Assembly (NCBI GenBank): GCA_903832295.1
Contig: CAILAZ010000289.1
Location: 1 to 64,000 of the forward strand
Length of the DNA stretch: 64,000 nucleotides
Source of the DNA: an uncultured Acidobacteriota bacterium
GTDB taxonomy: Bacteria > Acidobacteriota > Terriglobia > Terriglobales > Acidobacteriaceae
Reading direction: 5' to 3'
The notes under the pieces are model-generated. The model saw nothing but the letters and a program-made list of their open reading frames with translations, was not told the DNA's origin and searched no databases. Position numbers and translations under genes: made by a program. The first letter of the stretch is position 1. The number at the start of each line of letters is the position of its first letter. This document shows, piece after piece, positions 2,262 to 51,519 of this stretch.

Positions 2262-3824
2262 CTATTCCCACTCAATCGTCCCCGGAGGCTTCGACGTTAT
2301 GTCATAAACCACCCGGTTGATCCCCGGCACTTCGTTCACAATGCGGCTTGAAATGGCCTTCAAAACCTCATGCGGCAGCGGAACCCAGTCCGCCGTCATC
2401 CCATCTTCACTGGTCACCGCGCGGATCGCGCACGTGTACGCATACGTCCTCTGGTCGCCCATTACGCCCACCGACATCACCGGCAGCAGCACCGCGAACG
2501 ACTGCCATATCTGGTCGTAAAGCCCAGCCCGCTTGATCTCCGTCAACACAATGTCATCGGCCTCCTGCAGCAGCGCAATGCGCTCCGGCGTCACTTCGCC
2601 CAGGATTCGCACTGCCAGTCCAGGCCCCGGAAATGGCTGCCTCTGCAGCATCTCATCCGGCATCTGCAGGTCGCGCCCTATGCGCCTCACCTCATCCTTG
2701 AACAGGTCGCGCAGCGGCTCAATCAATTTCAATTTCATCTTCGCCGGAAGCCCACCCACGTTGTGATGGCTCTTGATCGTCACCGAAGGTCCGCGCACGC
2801 TCACCGACTCAATCACGTCCGGATACAGCGTTCCCTGCACCAGCCACTGCACCTCGCCGTACTCGCGCTTGATGCGCTGCGACTCCTCGTCAAACACTTC
2901 GATGAATTCGTTGCCGATAATTTTCCGCTTGCGCTCCGGATCGCTTACGCCCGCGAGTTTTGAGAGAAACCTGTCGGTCGCGTCCACCGCGTCAATGTTG
3001 AGCTTGAGCTTGGTTCGCAAATTGTGCTGCACCTTCGCGTACTCATCCTTGCGCAGCACGCCGTTGTTGACGAATACGCACGTCAACCGGTCGCCGATGG
3101 CGCGGTGCACCAGCGTCGCAGCCACGCTGGAATCCACTCCGCCGGAGATCGCGCACAGCGCACGCCCCTCGCCCACGGTCTCGCGTATCTGGGCGATGGT
3201 GGAATCGATGAAGCGCTGCGGCGTCCAAGACGGCTGCGCCTTGCAGATGCCGAAGACAAAATTCTTCAGCAGGCTGGTCCCAAACTTTGTGTGATGCACC
3301 TCAGGATGAAATTGCACCGCGTAATATCCTGCGGCAACATTTTCAATTGCCGCCACGGCGCTAGTCGTGCGCGCCACCAGGCGGAAGCCGGGCGCAAGTG
3401 TATCCGCCTCATCGCCGTGCGACATCCACACCGACAGCGTCTCCGGCAATCCCACGAACAGCGCAGAACTCTCGAGCACGGTCACTTCCGCGTGGCCGTA
3501 CTCGCGTTTGCTGGCTGCGTGTACCGTGCCGCCCAGCGTGTGCGTCATGAACTGCAGGCCGTAGCAGATGCCCAGCACCGGCAGTCCAAGCTTGAGCACT
3601 TCGGGGTCGGCCGGAGGTGCGTCCACGTCATACACCGAGCAGGGGCCGCCGGACAGAATAATGCCCACCGGATTGTAGCCGCGGATTTCGTCCAGCTTGG
3701 CCGTGCAAGGCAGGACAACCGAGAAGACATTCTGCTCGCGAATGCGCCGCGCAATAAGCTGCGTGTACTGCGAGCCGAAGTCCAGGACAACGATGGAGGG
3801 AAGCGCTATGTGTTCCACACTCAA
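2262..3824 (-). CDS. guaA: GMP synthase (glutamine-hydrolysing)
   Basis: GuaA converts XMP, ATP and glutamine to GMP in the cytoplasm, the last step of guanine nucleotide synthesis. The 520-residue length is normal. The N-terminal class I glutamine amidotransferase domain (about 8-195) starts with DFGSQYTQLIARRIRE and carries the triad Cys87 (GICYGLQ), His173 and Glu175 (FHPEV). The ATP pyrophosphatase domain has the P-loop SGGVDSS at 227-233. The C-terminal dimerisation domain ends in the family-typical PPGTIEWE. The first codon of this frame is TTG at 3824, with a GTG two codons later; no ATG is available nearby. It follows the membrane-protein gene at 3858 by 33 bp and may share its transcript. 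Confidence 0.97.
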   Translation of the reverse strand: MSVEHIALPSIVVLDFGSQYTQLIARRIREQNVFSVVLPCTAKLDEIRGYNPVGIILSGGPCSVYDVDAPPADPEVLKLGLPVLGICYGLQFMTHTLGGTVHAASKREYGHAEVTVLESSALFVGLPETLSVWMSHGDEADTLAPGFRLVARTTSAVAAIENVAAGYYAVQFHPEVHHTKFGTSLLKNFVFGICKAQPSWTPQRFIDSTIAQIRETVGEGRALCAISGGVDSSVAATLVHRAIGDRLTCVFVNNGVLRKDEYAKVQHNLRTKLKLNIDAVDATDRFLSKLAGVSDPERKRKIIGNEFIEVFDEESQRIKREYGEVQWLVQGTLYPDVIESVSVRGPSVTIKSHHNVGGLPAKMKLKLIEPLRDLFKDEVRRIGRDLQMPDEMLQRQPFPGPGLAVRILGEVTPERIALLQEADDIVLTEIKRAGLYDQIWQSFAVLLPVMSVGVMGDQRTYAYTCAIRAVTSEDGMTADWVPLPHEVLKAISSRIVNEVPGINRVVYDITSKPPGTIEWE

Positions 3825-4899: not shown

Positions 4900-7623
4900 T
4901 CAGCCCTTGATGACGATGTTGACCAGCTTGTTCTTCACCACGATCACCTTGACGATCTGCTTGCCGGCCAGCGCTTCCTTCACCTTCTCGTCGTTGAGGG
5001 CGGTGACGCGCACGGCCTCATCTTCGGCATCGTGAGCCACAGTGAGCCGCTGCCGCAGCTTGCCGTTGAACTGCACCACGATCTCGACCTCATCCTCTTT
5101 CGCCAGCAGCGGGTCCGCAATCGGCCACGGGTGGCGTAACAGTGCATTGGCATCTTCGCCGAGCACGGTCCACAGTTCCGCAGCGAGATAGGGCGCAAAG
5201 GGGCTGAGCAGCAGCACCATCTTGCGCTGCACCTCGGCGCGGAAGGCCTTGGGAGCCGCTGAATCCGCGGCGAAGAGCTCGGCTTTCACCATGCACGCGT
5301 TCAGCAGTTCCATCATGGCCGCGACAGAGGTATTGAAGTGCCAGCGTCCCTGGAAGTCGCCGGTGATGCGCTGGATTGTCTGGTGCAGCTTGCGCAGAAC
5401 GTTGCGCGCGCCAGGAGCAAGCGCGGCGACATCGTACTCGCGGGGCTCGCCCGCAGCCATCTTCACCGAGTTCTCGGTGATGAAGCGGTAGAGGCGAGAG
5501 AGGAAGCGGTACACGCCCTCGACGCCCTGGTCCTGCCAATCGAGGTCGCGGTCCGGCGGGGCGGCAAACAGGGTGTAGAGCCGCGTGGCATCGGCACCGT
5601 AGCGGGCCACCATGTCATCGGGCGATACCACGTTGCCCAAAGACTTTGACATCTTGGCGCCGTTCTTGATCACCATGCCCTGCGTGAACAGGCGCTGCGC
5701 CGGTTCGTCGTTCTTCACCAGGCCGATGTCGCGCATGAACTTTGTCCAGAAGCGCGAGTACATGAGGTGAAGGATGGCGTGCTCGACGCCGCCGATGTAC
5801 TGATCCATGGGGAACCAGTAGTTGGCGATGTCGCTGTCAAAGGGCGCGGTGTTGATGGGGCTGGTGTAGCGGTAGAAATACCAGCTTGAATCGACAAACG
5901 TGTCCATGGTGTCAGAGTCGCGGCGCGCCGTTCCTCCGCACCTGGGGCAGGCAACTTCGTAGAACTCTTTTACGCGCGTCAGCGGGGAGCCGCCTGCGAG
6001 CGTGATCTCGACATTTTCCGGCAGCAGCACGGGAAGCTGATCTTCCGGCACCGGCACCAATCCGCATTTTTCGCAGTAGAGAATCGGAATCGGCGTGCCC
6101 CAGTAGCGCTGGCGAGAGATGCCCCAATCCTTCAAGCGATAGGTGATGGTCGCCTTGCCAAAACCATTCTGCTCGGCAAAGTCGGCCATCTTCTTTTGCG
6201 CTTCTTCGCAGGCCATTCCGTTGAACGGGCCGGAGTTGATGAGCAGAGAATCTTCGGCCACAAAGGGCAGCACGGGCTGCTCCGGCTGCCCGGCTTCGGG
6301 CGGCTCCTGCTGGCGGCGCGGCAGAATGACGATGCGCACTTCGATGCCGTATTTGTTGGCGAATTCAAAGTCGCGCTCGTCGTGCGCGGGCACGGACATG
6401 ATGGCGCCGGTGCCGTAGTCCATCAGGATGTAGTTGGCCACCCAGATGGGTACGCGCTCCTGGTTGAAGGGATTGATGGCGCAATGTCCGGTGAAAAAGC
6501 CCTTCTTGTCCACCGATCCGATGTCGCCCTCTTCGCGGGCTTTCTTCTGGTCGGCCAGCATCTGCTCCAGGCTGGCAAGCTTCGCGGGATCGTTGCCGAC
6601 GAGCTCTGCCACCAGGGGATGCTGTGGCGCTAGCTGCAAGGAAGTCGCGCCGAAGATGGTGTCAATGCGGGTGGTGAAGACCGTGATCTTCGTTTCGGTG
6701 CCCCCGTCGAGTTTGAAGTCGACGTTTGCGCCTTCGCTGCGGCCAATCCAGTTGCGCTGCATGGTACGCACGCGCTCCGGCCAGCCCTCCATTTTGTCCA
6801 GCCCCTGCAGCAGTTCTTCGGAATAGTTGGTGATGCGCAGCGACCACTGTTCGAGTTCACGCTGCTCTACCGGGGTGCCTTCGTGGCGCCAGCAGCAGCC
6901 GTCCACCACCTGCTCGTTGGCGAGCACGGTGGCGCAATCCGGACACCAGTTGACCTTGCTCTTTTTGCGGTAGGCCAGACCCTTCTCAAAGAGCTTGAGG
7001 AAGAACCACTGGTTCCAGCGGTAGTACTCAGGCAGGCAGGTTGCGATCTCGCGCGACCAGTCATAGCTGAAGCCGAGGCGCTTCATCTGCGCCTTCATGG
7101 CGGCAATGTTGTTCAGCGTCCACTCGCGCGGCTGGCGCTTGTGCTTGATGGCGGCGTTTTCCGCGGGCAGACCAAAGGAATCCCAACCCATGGGGTGCAG
7201 CACGTTGTGGCCGCTCATCCACATGTAGCGGGCCAGGGCGTCGCCGATGGCGTAGTTGCGCACGTGTCCCATGTGCAGCGCGCCGGAGGGATAGGGCAGC
7301 ATCTCCACTACGTAGTACTTGGGCTTGCCGCAGGTGGGCGGCTCAGGAGCGTAGCGGGTAAGATCGCTCTCCCAGAGCGCGGCCCACTTCTGCTCCACCG
7401 GAGTGGGATCGTAGCGTGTGTCGTCGGCTGCTCGCAGGTGAGGCTCCGCGTCGGGCTCCGTAACGGCGGCCGGAGGCGAGACGATGCCTAGCTCCTGTGC
7501 CAGTCCCTTCACGTCCTGCACCATGACTTCGGCGGCTTCACGCACCACTTCCACAACTTGTTCGAGGATGTCGGCTGGAGAATCCAGCGACGTTTTAGGG
7601 AGAGATTTCTGCTGATCTGCCAT
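4900..7623 (-). CDS. leuS: Leucyl-tRNA synthetase with N-terminal extension
   Basis: This class I synthetase charges tRNA-Leu. From the ATG at 7623 the protein has 907 residues. The HIGH-type motif is HMGH at 117-120 after PYPSGAL, and KMSKS lies at 657-661. Between them the CP1 editing region includes [15 protein letters not shown]. The zinc-type pairs CPDC and CEKC are also present. The family-typical start ([10 protein letters not shown]) comes only at residue 71, so about 70 extra residues precede it, partly predicted helix and rich in Glu, Val and Ala. A TTG ten codons upstream (7653) also lies in frame, but ATG is preferred. A terminator follows the gene. Confidence 0.96.
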
Positions 7624-7708
7624 GAGTGTTGGTTCGCCCTGAGAGTGGCGCAAATTGCGCTAAGGATAAGAATTCATTCTACAACTTATGGGGCCGTTCT
7701 CCACACAC

Positions 7709-8650
7709 CTACTCTGCCAGCGCTTTCAGGGCCTCGACATTATGCAAGTCGTCGAAGGGTTCGTCGACGGGAGTTTCCAGGATGAACGCGGCGTGTGCGT
7801 GGCGCGGATCGTGCAGCAGGCGGCGGAACGGCTCGGCTCCGATGGTTCCTTTTCCGATGCTGTCATGACGGTCCAGTTTGGAGCCGCAGGCGGCCTTGGC
7901 GTCATTGCAATGCCAGACGCGCACGTTCGCGAGGCCTACGGTGGCGTCCAGATTGCGCATCGTTTCCTCGTATCCGGCTTCGCTTACGATGTCATAGCCT
8001 TTGACGTGGGTGTGGCAGGTATCAATGCAGCTTGCGACGGGGACGTGGGCGCGGAGTGCGGCGATCAGTTCGGCCACGCTCTCAAAGCTCGAACCCAGGG
8101 AGAACTCCGCACCCGCCGTGTTTTCGATCAACAAGGTGAGCCCGTTCTGCTCCATGTTGAGGCCGTCGCTGGCGCGGCTGATGGCAGCGCAGGCGTTGGC
8201 GATTCCCTGCTCGCGGGTGCAGCTCCGGAAGCTGCCGGGATGCAGCACTACATACTCCGCCTGAATCGAAATCGCTCGCTCCATTTCGGCGCGCAGCGCG
8301 TTCACGGACTTCTCCAGCATCTCGGGATCGGTGCCCGCGACATTGATGAGGTAGTTGGCGTGAATGACCAGCGGCTTCAGGTCGTACTGCTGGCGCAGGC
8401 GCAGCATGGCCTCACATTGCGCGGCGGAGATGTCAAAAGGCCGCCACATGCGCGGGCTGGAGCTGAAAATTTGCAGCGTATTGCATCCCAGGCGCCAGGC
8501 GCGCTCGGCTGAGGTCTCAACCCCTCCGGCCGTGGAAGTGTGAATTCCGATGCGGCGCGACTTGGGCTGTGCCCGGTGCTCGTCGGCGGGGATCAGCTTG
8601 AGGATGTCTCTTTCTGGCGTGGTCGCGGATTTTTTCACGGCTCGGGGCAT
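7709..8650 (-). CDS. nfo: Endonuclease IV (AP endonuclease, TIM-barrel)
   Basis: Endonuclease IV nicks DNA 5' of abasic sites in base-excision repair. Family landmarks occur in order: GIHTSTAGG, a metal-binding His in VIHANYL, VLHPGSF, the metal Glu in IENTAG, CIDTCHTHVKGYD, and the C-terminal DRHDSIGKGTIG signature. From ATG at 8650 the protein has 313 residues, somewhat longer than the usual 280 because of about 30 basic residues ahead of the barrel. The frame extends upstream to 8755, but that would overlap the divergent gene at 8749 and adds an unlikely Cys-rich stretch. The 98 bp between the two starts should hold both promoters. Confidence 0.94.
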   Translation of the reverse strand: MPRAVKKSATTPERDILKLIPADEHRAQPKSRRIGIHTSTAGGVETSAERAWRLGCNTLQIFSSSPRMWRPFDISAAQCEAMLRLRQQYDLKPLVIHANYLINVAGTDPEMLEKSVNALRAEMERAISIQAEYVVLHPGSFRSCTREQGIANACAAISRASDGLNMEQNGLTLLIENTAGAEFSLGSSFESVAELIAALRAHVPVASCIDTCHTHVKGYDIVSEAGYEETMRNLDATVGLANVRVWHCNDAKAACGSKLDRHDSIGKGTIGAEPFRRLLHDPRHAHAAFILETPVDEPFDDLHNVEALKALAE

Positions 8651-8748
8651 CGATAGATTGTAAGGCGTGTCGGCCACGGGGGCCAATGTCGGCCAGCAAC
8701 TCCCATTGCAGCGAGCACGGCATCCAATTAGATTGATCATCACGACCA

Positions 8749-9747
8749 ATGGCAAAATCCGGAATTCCTCTCAGCGACCACTTCGACGGCAAGCAGTTCC
8801 ACAATCCACAGCGGCGGGCGAGGGGGCTCTGGGACGTGCTGCGCTGGCTGCGAACGCGCCAGCCGGGGAGATGGCCAAAGTGGATTGATCGGCGCTACGG
8901 AGCACCGCCTCCAGCGCGCGTGCCCTGTTCGGACGAACCCGCCGAGGCGTTGCGCCTGACATTTGTGGGGCACATGACATTCCTGCTGCAATGGCAGGGG
9001 CTCAACATTCTCACCGATCCGATATGGTCTGAGCGCGCCAGCCCTATCTCATTTGCCGGTCCGCTTCGGGTCTGCGCCCCTGGCATCCGCTTCGAAGATC
9101 TGCCAGCAATTGACGTTGTGCTGCTCAGCCACGACCACTACGACCACATGGACCGGCGCACCATTCAGCGACTCTGGAAGACGCATCGGCCGCGTTTCTA
9201 CACCGCGCTGGGTAACGGCCGTCGCCTGCGTGCCTGGGGCATAGAGGAAGTTGTAGAGATGGACTGGTGGCAACAGTCAGAGCATGAAAGCGGGGTGCGC
9301 ATCGCCTGCACGCCGGCTCAACATTTTTCCGGACGCATGCCCTGGGGCCGCGATGCCGCGCTCTGGTGCGGCTTTGCCCTGCTACCGGCCGATGCGAAGG
9401 ATGGGAGCAATGCAATCTACTTTGCGGGAGACACCGGCTTTGGACCGTTCTTTGCACAGGTGGCAGAGCGTTTTCCTCATCCCAGGCTGGCGCTCCTGCC
9501 CATTGGAGCTTTCCGTCCGGAGTGGTTCATGGGAGAGGTGCACTGCAGTCCTGCGGATGCCGTGAAGGCTCATCGGATTCTGCGGCCAGGGCTGAGCGTG
9601 GCGTCACACTTCGGGAGCTTTCCATTGGCCGATGACGGATATGCCGAACCGCTCGCCGGACTGAATGCCGCGCTGCTCGAGCTGGAGGGCGACGCGACAG
9701 CAACATTCATCGCTCTCACAGAGGGCGATTCGCGCCTCATCGGCTGA
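8749..9747 (+). CDS. Metallo-beta-lactamase-fold hydrolase, NAPE-PLD/UlaG-like
   Basis: The 332-residue protein has the metal-binding SHDHYDHMD motif of the metallo-beta-lactamase fold, preceded by GHMTFLLQWQGLNILTDP. Further metal ligands are expected in PAQHFSGR, FAGDTG and SHFGSFP. The short lead-in (DHFDGKQFHNP) and overall pattern resemble the NAPE-phospholipase D / UlaG-like group, which act on phosphoester-type substrates. The true substrate cannot be read from sequence. The start at 8749 has no obvious ribosome binding site. It is divergent from nfo and ends 68 bp before rpsA. Confidence 0.88.
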   Translation: MAKSGIPLSDHFDGKQFHNPQRRARGLWDVLRWLRTRQPGRWPKWIDRRYGAPPPARVPCSDEPAEALRLTFVGHMTFLLQWQGLNILTDPIWSERASPISFAGPLRVCAPGIRFEDLPAIDVVLLSHDHYDHMDRRTIQRLWKTHRPRFYTALGNGRRLRAWGIEEVVEMDWWQQSEHESGVRIACTPAQHFSGRMPWGRDAALWCGFALLPADAKDGSNAIYFAGDTGFGPFFAQVAERFPHPRLALLPIGAFRPEWFMGEVHCSPADAVKAHRILRPGLSVASHFGSFPLADDGYAEPLAGLNAALLELEGDATATFIALTEGDSRLIG

Positions 9748-50191: not shown

Positions 50192-50359
50192 ATGCCGGGA
50201 ATGATTTACGAGAACAGATATGTGTGCCCAAGATGCGGGACCAAGTGGATGGACCGATGGTGTGCTTTGTGCAATGACCGCTGCCCTCATTGCCATCTGG
50301 AGAGTTCGCCAATCTTAAGTTCGGAGACCGGCCAGCGATGCCAGCACTCGGATTGCTAA
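50192..50359 (+). CDS. Small zinc-ribbon protein
   Basis: The 55-residue protein (MPGMIYENRYVCPRCGTKWM...) holds four cysteine pairs or near-pairs: CPRC, CALC, CPHC and a terminal CQHSDC, enough for two zinc sites. Such treble-clef or ribbon proteins bind nucleic acid or protein. GAGGTG lies 3-8 bases ahead of the ATG, a good start. The open frame continues upstream to 50069 without coding character. Its stop overlaps the stop of the convergent DpnI-like gene by four bases. Confidence 0.62.
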   Translation: MPGMIYENRYVCPRCGTKWMDRWCALCNDRCPHCHLESSPILSSETGQRCQHSDC

Positions 50360-51153
50360 GGAATGGGGAGCTTATCAACGATGTTCGTATTCCATTGATA
50401 GTTCCCACTCCCCACGAAGCGGAGCATTCCTAAATCCCTTAGCGCTTGCAACTGCTGTCGAATTTTGGGGCGAACGTTTTTGTTTCGGGGATGCAGAGCG
50501 CTTAGATAATGGTCCTGCGAGTACATATCTCCGAGGCTGAATTCTGACTTATTGAGCGAGCGCGCGATGTTAAGCACATCGATTAGCCATCCACGCGTCG
50601 AGACATCCAACGTCTGCAAAACGGCCATGCTCCTGTATTGCCTCCGCACCGCTATCGCATCGATTGGCTGGGAGTCGGCAATAAGGGGCACTCTGAGATC
50701 GCTTGGGATGCTGCTAAGGAGGATGTTGCAGCCCACCCACCCTGCGCGCCGTGCGGTCGGAGAAAGCGGCTTCCTCTTTTCTACTGCGGCGAGACTGAAG
50801 CCGAAGGACGGGATGAGCATCGCGTTCTTTACGGACCATTCGGCACGGTCGTAATGCACAAGAATGAGATTTGGAATCCGGTTTGACTCTATTGCACGAC
50901 ACATGGCGTCGTAGCCGGAGTCGGTCACCCTGTTTCCAAAAGGAAAACTCTGACTCTTGAGTTGGAATACCGACTCACAACCATCGCAAGTGAAATCAAC
51001 GGCCTGTGTATTTGGCGGCGTCGAACGAAGTTGAGCAGACTCGCACTTGACACAATAGAGATTTGCTTGTGCCCAAGCCTCGGTACATACACGCGCCTGT
51101 TGGCTAGCGCTGGTGAAGTTCACGGCCAGCAAACGACTCATCTGCAGGTCCAA
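50356..51153 (-). CDS. DpnI-type methylation-directed restriction endonuclease
   Basis: The 265-residue protein lines up with DpnI, which cuts GATC only when the adenine is methylated. The N-terminal nuclease domain has SASQQARVCTEAW, a zinc site of Cys34, Cys37, Cys56 and Cys59, and the catalytic line AVDF...FQLKS giving Asp53, Gln64 and Lys66. The middle matches DpnI closely in RKPLSPTARRAGWVGCNI. The last 75 residues (SRGWLIDVLNIARSL onward) fit its C-terminal winged helix, a second methyl-GATC reader. TTG at 51153 keeps DpnI numbering; ATG at 51141 is an alternative. No methyltransferase lies nearby, as expected for this type. Gln64 stands where DpnI, from memory, has Glu. Confidence 0.9.
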   Translation of the reverse strand: MDLQMSRLLAVNFTSASQQARVCTEAWAQANLYCVKCESAQLRSTPPNTQAVDFTCDGCESVFQLKSQSFPFGNRVTDSGYDAMCRAIESNRIPNLILVHYDRAEWSVKNAMLIPSFGFSLAAVEKRKPLSPTARRAGWVGCNILLSSIPSDLRVPLIADSQPIDAIAVRRQYRSMAVLQTLDVSTRGWLIDVLNIARSLNKSEFSLGDMYSQDHYLSALHPRNKNVRPKIRQQLQALRDLGMLRFVGSGNYQWNTNIVDKLPIP

Positions 51154-51519
51154 GAGGCTGTCGCTCCATTACAGAAGTGTATCGGGTACTCTGTTGAACA
51201 ACTTCTAGCAGTCGCTGTCTGCTCCGGTGGTGGCCGACGAGGACTCTGCCCGCACCAAGAAACCGCAATAGGCAACGGATACTAAAATGAAGTCGTAGTT
51301 CAACTTTATAGTCTTCTCGCAGAAATGAAACGGAAATTCTCAGCACCAAAGCCTGCACTTCCCATTTGCGACTTCTCTTCCTCTCTGCGATTCGGGCTAC
51401 CGCCTCGAACTTTGCAGGCGCAGGTCGGGAATTCCGGAGAGCAAGGTGGTGCAGCTCCAAGAGTTGGAGGGAGCCGAGGCTGAACCACGCAGCAAGGAGC
51501 CAACTCTGGGCCATCTGGT
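51154..51519. other. Gene-free stretch at right border of the low-GC island
   Basis: This 366-bp stretch between the DpnI-like gene and the MEMO-family gene has no credible gene. One minus-strand frame is open across it, but it runs out of the MEMO gene in another frame and has no family features. A TTGAAC ... TATCCG pair (51304-51277 region, minus strand) could act as a weak promoter for the nuclease gene. Confidence 0.35.

Follow-up and report, generated by a model that had tools for sequence, protein, structure and literature searches.

The gene at positions 50356 to 51153 of the window (the whole stretch of 64,000 nucleotides analysed here) encodes a new member of the known DpnI family, in all likelihood a stand-alone restriction enzyme of type IV/IIM that would cleave Gm6ATC in incoming DNA and that a Dam-less host would have acquired horizontally. 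DpnI, a workhorse enzyme, cuts DNA only at GATC sites methylated by another organism. What lifts the interest of this relative is its place in a branch of the family with glutamine at position 64 and its recurrent zinc-ribbon neighbour.

Identity and domain organisation

The endonuclease gene and its surroundings contain the following features:
50356..51153, minus strand: DpnI-family modification-dependent endonuclease gene, 265 aa (Pfam, PDB and AF2 matches)
50956..50997, minus strand: active-site core codons D53...Q64-L65-K66 with zinc cysteines C56 and C59 (alignment to DpnI and 92 relatives)
51154..51519, no strand: upstream spacer between the DpnI gene and memo, 54% GC, with no other recognised gene; presumed to hold the DpnI-gene promoter

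The frame is uninterrupted over 265 codons, with a TTG start and a TAG stop; the alternatives for the start are this TTG (51153, with GGAG 10 nt upstream) and an ATG at 51141. Residues 1-181 make up a PD-QXK catalytic domain with a zinc finger, and residues 186-253 a winged helix. The protein matches the Pfam families DpnI (PF06044; 5.7e-55, 186 bits against a cut-off of 26.7, model positions 1-182 of 183) and DpnI_C (PF17726; 2.3e-25, 89 bits against a cut-off of 23, model positions 2-69 of 70), as well as the PADLOC model mREase_II (methyl-directed type II; 9.9e-62), while no NCBIfam model matched it. Residues 5-253 align with the PDB structures of DpnI (4esj/4kyw) at 35% identity (5.3e-51). 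An AlphaFold2 model built from 43 natural sequences reached a mean pLDDT of 92.2, and in a Foldseek search of the PDB its sole significant matches were 4esj and 4kyw (4esj_B: 3.7e-27, TM 0.82/0.90). The protein is thus confirmed as a true relative of DpnI.

An earlier note on this DNA had claimed likeness to DpnI along the whole length and had named a search against DpnI and PF06044 as a check; the two Pfam domains and the PDB match, all far beyond chance, bear this out. The opening SASQQARVCTEAW and the motif PLSPTARRAGWVGCNI are present as it described them, the four zinc cysteines at DpnI positions were found (C34, C37, C56 and C59), and the match to PF17726 confirms the winged-helix tail. 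Its family assignment stands; it omitted the strand and missed the change of Glu to Gln at position 64. The host is acidobacterial, as it had proposed: two genomes of the family to which the window belongs have DpnI proteins identical to those in records labelled “Acidobacteriaceae bacterium” (G013 = L028, G009 = L078). Its interpretation as a whole holds, with three amendments (on rarity, on residue 64 and on the zinc-ribbon neighbour), given the family matches, the residues kept and a host without a PF02086 methylase.

Active site and DNA-reading residues

The catalytic domain of R.DpnI reads Gm6ATC by Ser17, Gln18, Asn48, Asp78, Arg126, Leu129, Arg135, Trp138 and Gly140, and in its winged helix Lys229 and Arg231 are important for binding (PMC4117772). 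At every aligned contact position checked, the window protein has the identical residue. Nearly all of these residues are invariant or close to it in the alignment of relatives, and the four zinc cysteines are invariant. Among the ligands corresponding to DpnI Asp53/Glu64/Lys66, D53 and K66 are kept and Glu64 is replaced by Gln64. Position 64 is Q in 55 and E in 38 of the 93 near-complete relatives, with nothing else found there, and D53 and K66 are essentially invariant; Glu at this position is thus not a defining feature of the family. The tree indicates about four E/Q changes at this position, at least two of which are forced by well-supported branches, and places the window protein inside a largely acidobacterial Gln group.

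In R.DpnI, Glu64 is one of the ligands of the site-1 metal (PMC4117772). Its loss could leave the Gln64 protein able to bind Gm6ATC but with little or no catalytic activity, making it a methyl-GATC reader and not a nuclease. We consider this unlikely: a position that holds only E or Q beside essentially invariant D53 and K66 has the pattern of a functional substitution, the repeated changes on the tree argue in the same direction, and QXK centres work elsewhere, namely in the PD-QXK enzymes of the BisI family, MspJI and Mrr, with Gln acting as a metal ligand in active BisI-family enzymes (PMC11347163, PMC12707154). Gln64 is probably a functional variant rather than a dead site, and the PD-QXK branch probably active, as residue 64 is confined to E or Q and the other key residues are conserved. 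This branch is large and spread over many phyla. The characterised family members found in the literature are all close to R.DpnI or Drg, and we know of no assayed enzyme of the Gln64 branch. It would supply new Gm6ATC enzymes and offers a test of PD-QXK replacing PD-EXK within one family.

Distribution and novelty

Matches to PF06044 over the cut-off were found in 9 of 100 relatives of the host and in 12 of 396 genomes across Acidobacteriota; the host genome carries one such gene according to the profile search. The share of sampled Acidobacteriota genomes with a DpnI-family gene is thus 3-10%, and hundreds of further genomes carry one as well. A single scan over 84,980 species genomes met 417 relatives, the best 80 of which come from Acidobacteriota, Verrucomicrobiota, Planctomycetota, Chloroflexota, Nitrospirota, Pseudomonadota, Bacillota and archaea. 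A pattern search of viral contigs returned no relative of the endonuclease; among plasmids and phages, the hits were confined to Neisseria records and fragments of the winged helix. The earlier note held the enzyme to be undescribed in Acidobacteriota: the literature search found no paper describing a DpnI-family enzyme there, but the gene itself is common enough in the phylum. Given this wide distribution of PF06044, the gene is new only in being undescribed in the acidobacterial literature found.

Host methylation and probable acquisition of the gene

The claim that the host must lack GATC adenine methylation is in keeping with the outcome of the check for a Dam methyltransferase which the earlier note had suggested: a profile search for Dam-type (PF02086) methylases, which detected the positive controls (E. 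coli and others), gave no match in the 4.87-Mb host genome (a draft of 351 contigs, 94.6% complete), nor does any methylase gene neighbour the DpnI gene. It is possible that a methylase was overlooked in a draft of 351 contigs, and the absence of PF02086 leaves room for GATC methylation by another methylase class. The same genome has a frame of 967 aa in which two segments match PF01555 (N6/N4 methylase; G000:C319:1252-2823; L101, L102), perhaps a phage-defence methylase. The siblings G001 and G002 carry PF02086 genes.

Two other indicators of methylation were tried and rejected. GATC has an observed/expected ratio of 0.74 in the window, similar to CATG (0.76) and GGCC (0.67); as GATC is not unusually avoided, base counts in the window are uninformative on methylation. 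The presence of PF02086, a family with many specificities, does not separate DpnI-bearing (2 of 9) from DpnI-less relatives (about 24 of 91), and a match of any kind occurs in 23 of the 63 DpnI-bearing genomes searched. Among the matches fetched, only 3 hosts had a close relative of M1 of pSRQ700, a GATC-type methylase: truncated beside DpnI in G512, broken by a stop in G490, and present twice in an archaeal MAG (G521). Such rarity would be expected if Dam and DpnI excluded each other, without being proof of it.

The GC content of the endonuclease gene is 0.53 (0.53-0.54 together with the zinc-ribbon gene), against 0.59-0.68 for the neighbours, and in three genomes of the same genus memo-ksgA-glgA is conserved (66-85% identity) and the DpnI gene absent. 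Together, these observations point to a recent acquisition. No clean empty insertion site turned up, since the siblings conserve memo-ksgA-glgA and differ beyond memo. Contamination was rejected as an explanation, the gene lying inside a 164-kb contig with flanking genes 66-85% identical to those of same-genus genomes.

The zinc-ribbon neighbour

Directly beside the endonuclease gene lies a further frame:
50192..50359, plus strand: gene for a 55-aa zinc-ribbon protein (MPGMIYENRYVCPRCGTKWMDRWCALCNDRCPHCHL...), from the frame call and the adjacency survey

It is convergent with the DpnI gene, with a 4-bp overlap that covers the DpnI stop codon, and has a good ribosome-binding-like site (GAGGTG) just upstream. 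The family pattern is YxCPxCGTxWxDxWSCxCNDxCPxCxxEIEPYxS; nothing was found above any cut-off in Pfam, NCBIfam, PADLOC or PHROGs. The predicted structure is compact (pLDDT 90), and Foldseek gave no match for it in the PDB at E<=0.001.

Members of this family are present in 14 of 96 distinct DpnI loci, never more than 290 bp from DpnI, in four arrangements (upstream on the same strand, downstream on the same strand, convergent and divergent). A convincing copy was found in 7 of 200 relatives searched as whole genomes (all 7 beside DpnI) and in 3 of 396 genomes of the phylum (2 beside DpnI), while 8 of 50 DpnI-bearing genomes have a copy, beside DpnI in 7. Zinc-ribbon neighbours and methylase or dam-remnant neighbours (14 and 29 of the 96 loci) never share a locus, with a hypergeometric p of about 0.004 when relatedness is ignored. 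The two convincing acidobacterial copies away from DpnI are that of G490 (L172 6237-6413, minus strand), which follows an operon (6427-9432) of two PF02086-type methylases, one of them stop-broken, and a putative endonuclease, and that of G251, a longer protein of the family beside a zinc-finger protein.

We propose that the zinc-ribbon gene is an accessory gene or regulatory partner of DpnI. That the family is functionally linked to restriction seems fairly probable from its placement; that its members are a new DpnI partner (an activator, an inhibitor or an expression control), recruited several times independently and perhaps with a role like that of DpnD/DpnA, we put forward tentatively. 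It is possible, if somewhat doubtful, that the gene is an unrelated passenger or a marker of a shared mobile element and that DpnI works alone. Relatives without DpnI nearby on proteobacterial plasmids (L173, L174, L175, L177 and L179) and in Pseudomonas phage KPP25 (ORF038, L176 2971-3297) would fit such a passenger, as would the 82 of 96 DpnI loci without the gene and a search profile built mainly from DpnI-adjacent copies. Against it, 11 of the 13 convincing copies pooled over Acidobacteriota lie within 300 bp of DpnI, and do so upstream, downstream and convergently; in alphaproteobacterial hosts with a copy it is beside DpnI in 3 of 3, and no copy was found elsewhere in the 1.13 Mb of the 96 DpnI loci. 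Because the adjacency occurs in several orientations, shared descent of one arrangement is not sufficient to account for it. If confirmed, the partner would add to methyl-dependent restriction a component missing from the four profile libraries searched.

Other recurring DpnI neighbourhoods

Grouping of the DpnI-neighbour genes by clustering gave two further recurring arrangements, neither of which is found at the window locus:
Truncated Dam/DpnM-type genes: L135 10440-10742, L136 9556-9753, L083 425-817, L063 166-1164
Truncated Dam/DpnM-type genes: L040 6819-7772, L089 6862-7755, L088 961-1950; also L099, L077, L082, L048
DpnA-type methylases: L140 7279-8649, L009 90-1424, L024 412-1413
DpnA-type methylases: L025 6616-7830, L026 6573-7946, L049 6543-7964

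In the first, seen in eleven loci from five phyla, DpnI is directly preceded on its own strand by a Dam/DpnM-type gene that is truncated just before it, at many different cut points. In Neisseria meningitidis, drg is inserted in dam with truncation, and for gonococci a DpnIIB-like neighbour has been published (PMC4269198); the truncated loci show that such a “dam-replacing” arrangement recurs outside Neisseria. In G396 (L012), DpnI is followed by a small DpnD/PcfM-like frame (2253-2570) and then by a frame (2563-3294) whose product resembles the G490 operon's putative endonuclease, which suggests that DpnI was inserted into a restriction-modification operon there.

The second arrangement concerns six Gln64-type loci, each with an intact DpnA-type methylase encoded upstream of DpnI in the same orientation; these methylases share 52-58% identity with M2, the second methylase of the lactococcal plasmid pSRQ700. 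The DpnA-type gene beside a Gm6ATC nuclease is probably a GATC methylase, a pairing explicable only by single-strand action or tight regulation. The same loci could be taken to mean that the Gln64 branch consists of ordinary methylase-paired restriction enzymes that target unmethylated GATC. We regard this as highly improbable: with no methylase neighbour and no PF02086 gene in its genome, an enzyme of that kind would cut the chromosome of the window's own host, and the methyl-pocket residues Trp139 and Arg136 are invariant in the Gln64 branch. Pneumococcal DpnA, moreover, acts on single strands (PMC3573125) and would be tolerable in a DpnI host; as DpnI has a strong preference for sites that are fully methylated (PMC11037411), coexistence of the two need not be lethal.

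Proposed function

For the solitary, methyl-dependent enzyme that we favour, we infer activity, specificity and a role in defence from homology, conserved residues and the absence of PF02086. The winged-helix domain would bind Gm6ATC that is fully methylated. The catalytic domain would read the same sequence and, through its Trp139/Arg136 cleft, both methyl groups, with the metal centre formed by D53, Q64 and K66 cutting within the site. Dam-methylated phage or plasmid DNA would thereby be destroyed and host DNA spared, because the host has no Dam-type methylase. Being solitary in a Dam-less genome, the enzyme would have to ignore unmethylated GATC, as it would otherwise not be tolerated. Horizontal transfer probably brought in the gene along with its zinc-ribbon neighbour. 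For acidobacterial genetics, the proposed function implies that DNA from Dam-positive E. coli may be degraded as it enters the cell.

Comparison with known systems

R.DpnI (DpnC) of Streptococcus pneumoniae (4esj/4kyw) shares with the window protein homology over the full length, the zinc finger, the winged helix, D53, K66 and all GATC and methyl contacts checked. The two differ in overall sequence and in residue 64 (Glu in DpnI), and the window locus has a zinc-ribbon gene instead of a dpnD neighbour and is not a DpnI/DpnII exchange locus. Drg, the product of the dam-replacing gene of Neisseria (PMC4269198), is a DpnI-family enzyme with Gm6ATC specificity, found as a low-GC insertion in a Dam-minus host; it is about 31% identical to the window protein and lies in a leuS/dam locus, whereas no dam remnant was found at the window locus. 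FcyTI and Psp4BI are Gm6ATC-dependent enzymes which also combine PD-(D/E)XK with a winged helix, and at 58-59% identity (PMC11037411) they are far closer to DpnI than is the window protein, at 35%. The BisI family, MspJI and Mrr belong to other families, have other modified targets and lack the DpnI-type domain pair, but, like the window protein, have Gln where the (D/E)XK motif has its acidic residue.
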